From: Paenibacillus mangrovi
Lineage (GTDB): Bacteria > Bacillota > Bacilli > Paenibacillales > Paenibacillaceae
Direction of reading: 5' to 3'
Length of the DNA stretch: 64,000 nt
NCBI RefSeq assembly: GCF_022898935.1
Contig: NZ_JALIRP010000001.1
Span: 620,001-684,000 of the forward strand
Numbering within the stretch: position 1 is the first letter of the stretch; each line of letters begins with the position of its first letter. The notes beneath the pieces were generated by a model, which made no database searches, had not been told where the DNA came from, and saw only the letters and a list, made by a program, of their open reading frames with translations. Shown here piece after piece: positions 37,307 to 55,464 of the stretch. A program made the translations under genes and the position numbers.

Positions 37307-37583
37307 AAATTGAACGTCAGAGATCGGGAGAGTAAGGAAGGGAGAACATGGACAGCGAGCCGGAGATGGTGAAAGCCGGTACATGTTCCTTCGTGAAGCG
37401 CACCCGTGAGATGGCTGATCCAACGTTTATCCGCCCGCGATAGCAAGTAGATCAGTCCGGTTGGCCCCGTTAAAGGTTTTGAAGAGAAATGACAAGATGG
37501 CTGTGAACGCCTCTTTTCATTTACTTAGAGTGGTACCGCGGGAAGTTCAGCTCTCGTCTCTATATAGAGACGGGGGCTTTTTT
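37307..37583 (+). promoter_or_regulatory. T-box leader of argS, Arg (CGC) specific
   Basis: A classic tRNA-sensing leader. Stem I holds the AG-bulge and loop region near 37350-37375 and the specifier loop GAAGCGCACC, placing the codon CGC (Arg) at 37399-37401. The conserved T-box AGAGTGGTACCGCGG is at 37527-37541. The terminator is at 37549-37583, with arms AGCTCTCGTCTC and GAGACGGGGGCT and a T run. Uncharged tRNA-Arg should stabilise the antiterminator and raise argS expression. Codon, T-box and downstream gene agree. Confidence 0.93.
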
Positions 37584-53365: not shown

Positions 53366-53405
53366 AGTATCCAATTCATTTTTTAAAGCAAAAGGATGTG
53401 ACGAG

Positions 53406-53999
53406 ATGCAGCTTGAGAAAATCGTGAACTACCACAAAGCGCTGGCTGATCCGACACGGCTCCGTATTCTATTGCTGCTGTCGGAGGGTGAGATGAATGG
53501 CCAGGCTCTAGCGGAGAAGCTGAATATCTCCCAGCCAACGGTCACTCACCACGCAGCGAAGCTGAGGGAAGCGGCGCTGATCACGGAACGGCGCGAGAAG
53601 AATACGGTTTATTTTGCCCAAAATCACTATTTTATCCAGCAGCATGCCCAGGCATCACTGAACTTTATTTTCAAGGAAGGAGGAAAAGAGATGTCAGAAC
53701 CTGAGAATGAAAACGTCAAAGCGGCGGTGATCCGCAACTTTTTTGCCAAAGACGGCCGCATGCGCCAAATCCCATCTCAATACAAGAAGAAGCTTATTGC
53801 GCTTGAGCATTTGGTGGAGCAGCTGGAACCGGGCCGAAAGTATTCGGAAAAGGAAATCAATGAGTTCATTAAGCAGTATCATGAGGATTATGCAACGATC
53901 CGGAGAGAGTTTATTATGCATCAGTTTATGTACCGTGAAGACGGAATTTATGAGCTGAATCCACGAGAGCTATGGACGCATTGGGAGAACGTAAAGTAA
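53406..53999 (+). CDS. ArsR-type regulator with DUF2087 domain
   Basis: A 197-residue regulator. Residues 5-85 form an ArsR winged helix (HKALADPTRLRILLLLSEGE, ISQPTVTHHAAKLREAALI). The C-terminal half is DUF2087 (NFFAKDGRMRQIPSQYKKK, IKQYHEDYATIRREFI), often attached to such regulators. No Cys pair for metal binding is visible in the sensor helix, so the ligand is probably not an arsenic-type metal. Its promoter carries a palindrome, indicating autoregulation. The gene it controls may be itself or the divergent ypdA. Confidence 0.88.
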   Translation: MQLEKIVNYHKALADPTRLRILLLLSEGEMNGQALAEKLNISQPTVTHHAAKLREAALITERREKNTVYFAQNHYFIQQHAQASLNFIFKEGGKEMSEPENENVKAAVIRNFFAKDGRMRQIPSQYKKKLIALEHLVEQLEPGRKYSEKEINEFIKQYHEDYATIRREFIMHQFMYREDGIYELNPRELWTHWENVK

Positions 54000-54008
54000 A
54001 AAAAGGGC

Positions 54009-54038
54009 TTGACATTAGTCCGAGTAACTGGTTATGAT
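54009..54038 (+). promoter_or_regulatory. Promoter of the rsgA leader transcript
   Basis: TTGACA, 18 bases, TATGAT, directly after the ArsR gene and 34 bases before the leader-peptide start. Confidence 0.7.
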
Positions 54039-54071
54039 GTCAATATATGACAGGAAAGGAGTCGATAAATC

Positions 54072-54158
54072 ATGAAAAACAAAACATTATTTGTATCCGT
54101 CGTTCGTTATGATCTATCGGTCTCCTTTCATCGGCCTAAGCAGGTTCCCATGTTCTAA
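54072..54158 (+). CDS. Leader peptide, 28 residues
   Basis: ATG start ten bases after AAAGGAG; peptide MKNKTLFVSVVRYDLSVSF, then HRPKQVPMF. Codons near 54119-54135 contain the bases that can pair with the left arm of the terminator at 54188, and the stop codon sits in the loop of a CATGTT/AACATG hairpin (54149-54167). The arrangement is that of a translation-controlled attenuator. The product is probably regulatory rather than functional as a protein. It has no homologue I recall. Confidence 0.7.
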   Translation: MKNKTLFVSVVRYDLSVSFHRPKQVPMF

Positions 54159-54187
54159 TCCAACATGATGGACCCTAGTTTGCACAT

Positions 54188-54220
54188 GCCGCGGAGACCA
54201 CCAGTCTCCGTGGCTTTTTT
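54188..54220 (+). terminator. Leader terminator 1
   Basis: Eleven-base arms GCCGCGGAGAC and GTCTCCGTGGC (one mismatch), loop CACCA, six T. Its left arm can pair instead with 54119-54135. Confidence 0.85.
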
Positions 54221-54242
54221 GTTGCTGCTGTGTGCATGCAAT

Positions 54243-54274
54243 AACCCCGGAGCCTTTTGCTTCGGGGTTTTTTC
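54243..54274 (+). terminator. Leader terminator 2
   Basis: Arms AACCCCGGAGC and GCTTCGGGGTT (one G-U pair), loop CTTTT, six T. Its left arm can pair with the right arm of terminator 1 (7 of 8 bases). Confidence 0.85.
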
Positions 54275-54307
54275 TCCGCTAAACGCGGCCCTAACTGCTG
54301 TGAAAAT

Positions 54308-54325
54308 ACGTCGACAGACGTTTTT
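54308..54325 (+). terminator. Small third terminator-like hairpin
   Basis: Five-base arms ACGTC and GACGT, loop GACA, then a T run; about 50 bases before the rsgA start. The stem is short and likely weak. Confidence 0.4.
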
Positions 54326-54372
54326 CTATATTAAACGATTTAATCAAATACCAATTACTAGGGGGATTTTAT

Positions 54373-55464
54373 TTGAACAAACTGACGCAATATGGCTGGA
54401 ATACAAGCTGGGATCATGAATGGAGCAAAGAAGACCGCAGTCTTCTGAAGCCGGGAAGAATCACCGCTGATTTCGGTCAGATGTACCGGGTGTATACCAG
54501 TGAAGGAGAAGTTTGGGGCGAATTGTCCGGTAAAATGAAGCATACTCTCCAAAGCGGTGATCCATCCCCCGCCGTGGGCGATTGGGTGGAACTGCAGCTG
54601 CTGGAAGGAGAGGGGCGCGGCATTATTCACGGAATTTTGGACCGAAAGACGAGTATTTCAAGACAGAAGGCAGGAGCCAAATCGGCGCAGGAGCAATTGA
54701 TTGCCGCAAACGTCGATATCCTTTTCCTCGTGACTTCGCTCAATGATGATTACAATCCGAGAAGAATGGAAAGGTACCTTATTATGGCGTGGAACAGCGG
54801 CGTAAGTCCGGTCATTTTGCTGAGCAAAGCGGATTTGTGTGATGATGCTGAGGTGAAAGCCGCAGAAATGGAGCTCATTGCCCCAGGCGTTCCTGTCCAT
54901 GCGATTAGCGCGCTGGAGGATCTGGGGAAAGATGCGGTAATCGGCTATTTAAAAGAAGGGGTCACCGTTGCGCTTACAGGCTCTTCCGGCTGCGGCAAAT
55001 CAACGATTGTCAATTGGCTGGCGGGGACAAGCGAGCAGCGGACGCAAGGAATCCGCGAAGATGATAGCCGTGGGCGCCATACGACGACCCATCGCGAGCT
55101 GTTCCTCCTTCCGCAGGGCGGACTTATGGTAGATACGCCAGGGATGCGGGAGCTTCAACTGTATGATGATGACGGAGGAGGCTGGGAGCAGGTATTTGCT
55201 GATATTGAAGCGATTGGTGAAGGCTGCCGGTTTGCAGACTGCCAGCATATAAATGAGGCGGGATGCGCGGTTCGTGTGGCTGTTAATGCCGGCGAGATCG
55301 ATGAAAAAAGATTGCTGAATTACCGCAAAACCCAGCGGGAGCTGCAATTTCAGATGAAAAAAGAAGCGCGGAGCCAAAGGAAAATGAACCGGAAAGACCG
55401 CTCCGTCAAGGAACCGGTTCGCCGTAAATCCTCTTTTTGGAACAGCCGATTGAATGAGGAATAA
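54373..55464 (+). CDS. rsgA: Ribosome small-subunit GTPase RsgA
   Basis: A 363-residue circularly permuted GTPase that checks late 30S subunit maturation. It has an N-terminal OB fold, the G4 motif LLSKADL near residue 156 placed before G1 GSSGCGKST and G3 DTPGM, and a C-terminal zinc site CRFADCQH..C. The tail is rich in Lys/Arg. TTG start behind AGGGGGAT. It stands alone, not with prkC/rpe as in the B. subtilis copy, so this may be a second paralogue. It lies after a leader ORF and tandem terminators that would limit transcription from upstream. Confidence 0.92.
   Translation: MNKLTQYGWNTSWDHEWSKEDRSLLKPGRITADFGQMYRVYTSEGEVWGELSGKMKHTLQSGDPSPAVGDWVELQLLEGEGRGIIHGILDRKTSISRQKAGAKSAQEQLIAANVDILFLVTSLNDDYNPRRMERYLIMAWNSGVSPVILLSKADLCDDAEVKAAEMELIAPGVPVHAISALEDLGKDAVIGYLKEGVTVALTGSSGCGKSTIVNWLAGTSEQRTQGIREDDSRGRHTTTHRELFLLPQGGLMVDTPGMRELQLYDDDGGGWEQVFADIEAIGEGCRFADCQHINEAGCAVRVAVNAGEIDEKRLLNYRKTQRELQFQMKKEARSQRKMNRKDRSVKEPVRRKSSFWNSRLNEE

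Follow-up and report, generated by a model that had tools for sequence, protein, structure and literature searches.

A probable ribosome-mediated transcription attenuator upstream of a second rsgA gene in Paenibacillus mangrovi and its relatives

Background

Amino-acid leader attenuators of the trp type combine a leader open reading frame (ORF) with alternative pairings of RNA segments, namely 1:2, 2:3 and 3:4. The leader described here, which lies upstream of a second rsgA gene (rsgA2) in a 64,000-nucleotide stretch of the Paenibacillus mangrovi genome (the window), would use the same logic together with a leader ORF. It differs from the trp type in having no regulatory codons, a segment 1 that overlaps the Shine-Dalgarno (SD) sequence and a second terminator, and in being ON, as we propose, with ribosomes at the start of the ORF. 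In the leader peptides of the 31 groups into which we sorted the leaders, positions 2-8, directly after Met, show no conserved residue, which does not fit an amino-acid biosynthesis leader.

Two described systems sense ribosome-targeting drugs through a short upstream ORF. The accessible part of the report on rli80-hflXr of Listeria monocytogenes describes a 14-aa ORF with an RLR motif, lincomycin and erythromycin as inducers, and a start-codon mutation that prevented induction (PMC6310831). The likeness to the rsgA2 leader, as far as that part of the report goes, lies in the short ORF, the antiterminator, the anti-antiterminator and the target, a ribosome-associated GTPase present as a second copy (PMC6310831). 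However, rli80-hflXr has RLR, HflX as its target and one terminator, whereas the rsgA2 leader has no RLR (0 of the 31 groups, unlike a macrolide-type resistance leader), RsgA as its target and two cross-complementary terminators; moreover, segment 1 is the SD sequence itself, unlike in rli80-hflXr as that part presents it (PMC6310831). For the toiL uORF of topAI in Escherichia coli, the accessible part of the report states that tetracycline and retapamulin hold ribosomes at the uORF start codon and that the SD sequence is needed (PMC12121999). The sensing of several drug classes and the holding of ribosomes at a start codon provide a precedent for our proposal, although the output of toiL, as described there, is translation with Rho termination and its target is unrelated, while the rsgA2 leader has intrinsic terminators (PMC12121999).

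Among the part of the matches listed from open-licence papers, we found no description of an rsgA attenuator. The kind of attenuator is known; its target is unexpected and widespread.

Results and discussion

A second gene of the RsgA family

The gene rsgA2 (54373..55464, forward strand, TTG start) encodes a circularly permuted GTPase of the RsgA family, with TIGR00157 at 148.8 bits (cut-off 100) and the RsgA GTPase domain PF03193 also above its curated cut-off, and the solved chains closest to the protein are RsgA or bear older names of RsgA. RsgA acts on 30S subunits. The only other RsgA-like match in the genome is presumably the canonical gene; it is located on another contig and is 33% identical to rsgA2 over residues 65-333. 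Judged from its sequence, rsgA2 is a paralog and not the genome's other RsgA; hence the original prediction, which named the downstream gene rsgA, was right about the family but not about the copy. While rsgA2 passes the family cut-offs, it differs from the RsgA/YjeQ/YloQ (CpgA) GTPases in being a separate paralog under putative leader control.

At an E-value of at most 1e-60, rsgA2-like proteins were detected in 95 of the 100 genomes searched in the genus and in 338 of the 394 searched in the family, and at an E-value of at most 1e-45 in 187 of 398 Bacilli, counts that include a more distant paralog (~40% identity) in some genomes. Scanning of named genome contigs placed 18 of 23 loci in Paenibacillus, the nearest being that of Paenibacillus dendrobii (90%). 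Five of these 23 loci were unused (L020 and L022-L025, from other phyla or partial), and L002 is the other RsgA.

Anatomy of the leader

A sigma-70-type promoter, TTGACA-18-TATGAT (54009..54038, forward strand, as are all features below), matches the consensus at 11 of 12 positions, and transcription would start at about 54045. Segment 1 (54054..54067) comprises the leader SD sequence (AAAGGAG, 54055-54061) and the spacer, and is followed by a leader ORF of 28 codons (54072..54158; MKNKTLFVSVVRYDLSVSFHRPKQVPMF), found in the sequence and by the ORF scan. Segment 2 (54115..54135) can pair either with segment 1, via 54115-54129, or with the left arm of terminator 1, via 54119-54125 and 54132-54135. 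Terminator 1 (T1; segments 3 and 4; 54188..54220) has a stem at 54188-54214 with six T and a predicted energy of -20.7 kcal/mol, and terminator 2 (T2) with its T-tract (54243..54273) has a stem at 54243-54269 and -18.3 kcal/mol.

Sequence and scans confirm the promoter, the ORF and both terminators as originally predicted, and the proposed complementarities GGTCTCC (54119-54125) to GGAGACC (54193-54199) and CGGC (54132-54135) to GCCG (54188-54191) are exact. Likewise, CTCCGTGG (54206-54213) and CCCCGGAG (54245-54252) are in place and pair at seven of eight positions. The CATGTT/AACATG hairpin (54149..54167; arms 54149-54154 and 54162-54167), as originally predicted, holds the stop codon and is enclosed by the predicted antiterminator when the structure is folded with the start region masked.

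Counts of sites do not single out the region, as two promoter-like and three terminator-like sites in 53400-55000 do not clearly exceed the mean of 2.1 each in shuffled sequences. Rfam returned no family match in the leader region at the gathering score, and a permissive search returned sub-threshold matches only, the best being sX11 (30.4 bits vs 70). We also noted a weak third terminator-like hairpin upstream of rsgA2 (54308-54321; ACGTCGACAGACGT-TTTT), of which slightly altered versions occur in L003, L004, L005, L007 and L033, and which was not seen in L006 and L011.

Conservation of the layout

We collected 137 distinct regions upstream of the best listed rsgA2 matches, including the window and with repeats removed, which represent six genera of the family, most being from the window's own genus. 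Our rule required an ATG ORF of 14-40 codons with an SD sequence, followed by an intrinsic terminator, the layout expected of an attenuator, and 135 of the 137 regions satisfy it; the two that fail (L111 and L124) show a leader by an earlier rule or by eye. A second terminator precedes rsgA2 by rule in 123 of the 135 loci, and some of the other 12 show T2 by eye (e.g. L008, L033, L098). A promoter match of at least 10/12 lies upstream of the leader in 130 of the 135 loci (range there 10 to 12). These counts retain wrong rule-based rows, e.g. L005 and L097 (T1 missed, T2 taken as T1), L126 and L127, as well as L114, a more distant paralog that was nevertheless kept among the 137; L155-L174 (the other paralog) and L175-L202 were excluded from every count.

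By ORF sequence the leaders fall into 31 groups, one of which has 60 members. The leader peptides are unrelated between groups, and the RNA pairings co-vary between the 31 groups. Thus, in the sampled relatives the layout of the original prediction is kept and its pairings co-vary, although the peptides are unrelated.

The antiterminator pairing

The common RNA plan is, mostly, a two-part ORF segment (GGTCTCC-like, a bulge, CGG-like) opposite the left arm of T1. The pairing of segments 2 and 3 is predicted at -17.9 kcal/mol in the window and reaches -12 kcal/mol or lower in 128 of the 135 loci (0.64 with shuffled ORFs), with segment 2 entirely within the ORF in 130 of 135. In the window alone this pairing is unremarkable (p=0.17 for dinucleotide and p=0.24 for synonymous-codon shuffles), and the best upstream duplex ranks 8th among the 35 terminator-like hairpins of the window. 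Tests on single groups are also mostly weak (p<0.05 in 9 of 31 by dinucleotide and 12 of 31 by synonymous shuffles). Since the statistics of the single window do not single out 2:3, the argument rests on the comparison: combined over the 31 groups, the shuffle p is 2e-15, and matched partners pair at -17.1 as opposed to -14.3 for swapped ones, with a permutation p of 5e-5 (the lowest value that 20,000 permutations can give) that overstates independence because the leader groups are related, as do the other permutation p-values given below. Prediction and co-variation thus both point to an antiterminator that overlaps the ORF and the left terminator arm and is mutually exclusive with T1. At predicted equilibrium, complete T1 wins over the antiterminator in 31 of 31 groups; antitermination must therefore be kinetic, as control is in trp-type attenuators.

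Segment 1 and the predicted response to stalled ribosomes

In the window, pairing of segment 1 (54054-54067) with 54115-54129 is predicted at -19.6 kcal/mol, stronger than 2:3 (-17.9), and in the minimum-energy fold without a ribosome the start codon (54072-54074) is also paired. The 1:2 pairing is at or below -10 in 125 of the 135 loci (0.21 with shuffled partners), its combined shuffle p over the 31 groups is 6e-23, and matched partners (-14.9) exceed swapped ones (-12.1; 31 groups, p=5e-5). A coordinated change is seen in L143, where GGAGGCTGATGTG stands opposite CACATCGGTCTTC, while the window has GAAAGGAGTCGATA opposite TATCGGTCTCCTTTC. An anti-antiterminator upstream, with the SD region as segment 1, is thus indicated (p=5e-5), although masking was without clear effect in 10 of 31 groups. 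The earlier model, which held that an early stall allows antitermination, is well supported by the comparison in that its plan is kept, co-varies and gives the highest predicted 2:3 at P-site codons 1-4; however, it overlooked the pairing of the SD region with the ORF, a fourth segment. With this pairing the expectation for an untranslated leader is the opposite: it should be OFF without a ribosome.

For the stall predictions we folded the nascent leader up to the T1 loop with the ribosome footprint masked. Masking of the start increased predicted 2:3 by over 0.1 in 21 of the 31 groups and decreased it in none, the other ten showing no clear difference. In a scan of stall positions over 29 groups (L114 and L126 left out), mean predicted 2:3 is 0.66-0.71 with P-site codons 1-4, compared with 0.37 without a ribosome; it is 0.43-0.59 at codons 5-12, 0.29 and 0.18 at codons 13 and 14, and 0.09 and 0.08 at codons 15 and 16. 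For the window itself the values are 0.35 in the absence of a ribosome and 0.8 for stalls at codons 1-4, yet codons 5, 11 and 14 give 0.7 as well, and in L105, L150 and L154 predicted 2:3 is clearly up again for stalls past segment 2. According to these folds, ribosomes held at the start should be the strongest trigger of the leader, though not the only one. The most likely inducers seem to be drugs that stop initiation or early elongation; the lack of any conserved codon position speaks against amino-acid shortage, the other inducer originally considered.

A possible relay to the second terminator

The original prediction also held that the right arm of T1, once freed, could open T2. In the window, the right arm of T1 (54206-54213) pairs with the left arm of T2 (54245-54252) at -10.4 kcal/mol, and among the other 34 terminator-like hairpins T2 provides its best partner, by a narrow margin (the next is -10.0). 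This pairing is at or below -10 in 117 of 123 loci (0.36 when shuffled), and over 26 groups matched partners (-14.1) exceed swapped ones (-11.4; permutation p=5e-5); single-group tests give p<0.05 in 10 of 26 (dinucleotide) or 19 of 26 (mononucleotide). In RNA from the right arm of T1 to the T2 loop, the pairing is predicted at above 0.5 in 25 of 26 groups, while complete T2 wins over it in 18 of 26, the window included. A direct action of segment 2 on T2 found no support in a test, as segment 2 does not co-vary with the left arm of T2 (-7.2 vs -7.3, p=0.64).

The pairing proposed for the relay is thus kept and co-varies. However, that of the left arm of T1 with the right arm of T2 also co-varies (p=1e-4), and an asymmetry between the two cross-pairings, which we considered as proof of a relay, is absent over the 26 groups (13 vs 12, one tie); over all 123 loci it favours the relay by 85 to 37, a count dominated by one clade of 60 leaders. 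A likeness of the two stems by descent would give the same picture as a relay, which from these sequences we regard as plausible but unproven.

The distance from the T2 stem to the rsgA2 start is at most 45 nt by rule in 9 of 121 loci, two of which (L014, L110) are doubtful on re-reading, leaving L006, L009, L010, L011, L021, L030 and L128. In our judgement such a gap leaves no space for a further promoter, so RNA polymerase must be able to get past T2 in these loci, which is the functional case for a relay. In the 123 loci, the best promoter-like match after T2 is 6 to 9 of 12, in searched stretches whose lengths differ from those before the leader.

Proposed mechanism and alternatives

We propose that the leader is probably a ribosome-mediated transcription attenuator which reports ribosomes held at the start of its ORF and then allows RsgA2 to be expressed. 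It would have a four-segment plan, with the SD region as segment 1, about codons 15-22 as segment 2, and the arms of T1 as segments 3 and 4. Without a ribosome, 1:2 and 3:4 (T1) would form and transcription would stop. A normally moving ribosome would cover segment 2 and, once past, let 1:2 form again, so that the leader would stay OFF. A ribosome stuck at codons 1-4 would cover segment 1, leaving segment 2 free to capture segment 3 before segment 4 is made; T1 would fail, and the released segment 4 may then take the left arm of T2, opening the second terminator so that rsgA2 is transcribed. Antibiotics that block initiation or the first peptide bonds would be the natural inducers.

A broader version of this proposal can be put forward only tentatively. 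It supposes that a six-segment cascade (1 covered, 2:3, then 4:5), through which a single ribosome halted at the start codon opens both terminators one after the other, is kept in the sampled Paenibacillaceae and induces RsgA2 as a 30S-acting GTPase for target protection or rescue when drugs or defects freeze initiation, and that other Bacilli connect the same sensor to translation attenuation. Marginally better placed, and a serious possibility, is that the attenuator works as proposed while T2 is an independent back-up, its likeness to T1 being due to duplication or concerted change with no relay. The co-variation of the left arm of T1 with the right arm of T2, the missing asymmetry over the 26 groups and the advantage of complete T2 in 18 of them all fit such a back-up. 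Against it, induction would be blunted unless T2 were disarmed, and the short-gap loci (9 of 121, two doubtful) have no room for a promoter after T2; besides, the right arm of T1 is the only partner found for the left arm of T2, segment 2 showing no co-variation with it, and their pairing is predicted at above 0.5 in 25 of 26 groups in RNA from that arm to the T2 loop.

The other alternatives concern the sensor. A two-state homeostat of translation capacity, the reading nearest to the original prediction, in which there is no anti-antiterminator and any lack of translation, including few working 30S subunits, leads to antitermination, would suit the established action of RsgA on 30S subunits, and in L089, L104, L105, L115, L117, L122, L150 and L154 predicted 2:3 is indeed at least 0.69 without a ribosome; yet we consider it unlikely, as 1:2 co-varies (p=5e-5), is at or below -10 in 125 of 135 loci and sequesters the SD sequence and the start codon in the window, and as changes in the uORF start codon or SD sequence prevented or strongly reduced induction in the two related systems, according to the accessible parts of the reports (PMC6310831, PMC12121999). 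An amino-acid attenuator or a specific arrest peptide, for which the signal would be a stall at certain codons or on a defined nascent peptide, seems improbable. Although stalling of this type is how classical attenuators work, and DTCLPG over the pairing segment is common to most of the largest clade (60 members), the 31 groups lack a conserved position among 2-8 and RLR, only 3 of them have R/K-x-R/K in the first 12 residues, and the recurring VS (20 of 31) and DTCLPG lie mostly on segment 2 and are explicable by RNA pairing. Least credible of all is that ordinary terminators of an upstream transcript happen to stand beside an unrelated short ORF, with no regulation: the weak window-only statistics (p=0.17, rank 8 of 35, site counts not clearly above shuffles) would agree with this, but the unit accompanies rsgA2 even where a different gene lies upstream, a promoter of at least 10/12 precedes the leader in 130 of 135 loci, and the pairings co-vary.

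If the proposed attenuator is real, the widespread second RsgA of Bacilli would be a stress-induced ribosome factor, comparable to HflXr, and not a redundant copy, and would give the search for inducible tolerance of ribosome inhibitors in soil bacteria a new starting point. That sampled relatives in six genera share the layout may hint that a response to ribosome poisoning has gone unrecognised. With a working relay, a single event could open terminators in tandem, and one sensor would achieve low leakage.

Leaders in other families of Bacilli

We collected 59 distinct regions upstream of rsgA2 relatives in other Bacilli families, 8 of which have no candidate leader by rule, and 36 of the remaining 51 entered a strict test for translation attenuation. 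A first, loose rule (25 of 36 vs a control rate of 0.35) had an unequal control and was replaced. Under the strict rule with an equal control, 13 of the 36 regions, from five families, passed, compared with 1.0 expected under shuffling (L203-L206, L210, L215, L217, L223-L225, L228, L231 and L236). In these 13, the ORF pairs with its own SD region and with the spacer, and the spacer pairs with the rsgA2 ribosome-binding site. Outside Paenibacillaceae, the same sensor logic thus looks to be wired to translation attenuation, in an exploratory analysis of sequences. Other loci from outside the family, e.g. L207 and L218, have one terminator by eye, with GCACAGCCC or GCACGGCCC opposite GGGCTGTGC. 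In L222, L243, L244 and L262, the leader ORF ends in a sequence (GGGTTTCCCTCCCTT type) that directly complements the ribosome-binding site of rsgA2.

Upstream neighbourhood and further rsgA paralogs

Just 5' of the leader promoter, the window encodes an ArsR-type HTH protein fused to DUF2087 (53406-53999). By eye, the largest clade has a different gene in its place, which we take to encode a HAD hydrolase. The further rsgA paralog (~40% identical; L155-L172, e.g. L171, L161, L163) apparently has a short leader ORF too, which by eye reads MATTYMVVWS in L171, and several of its loci carry two tandem terminators upstream, with other sequences. Elsewhere in the window, 37311-37564 is a T-box leader (RF00230, 103.6 bits).
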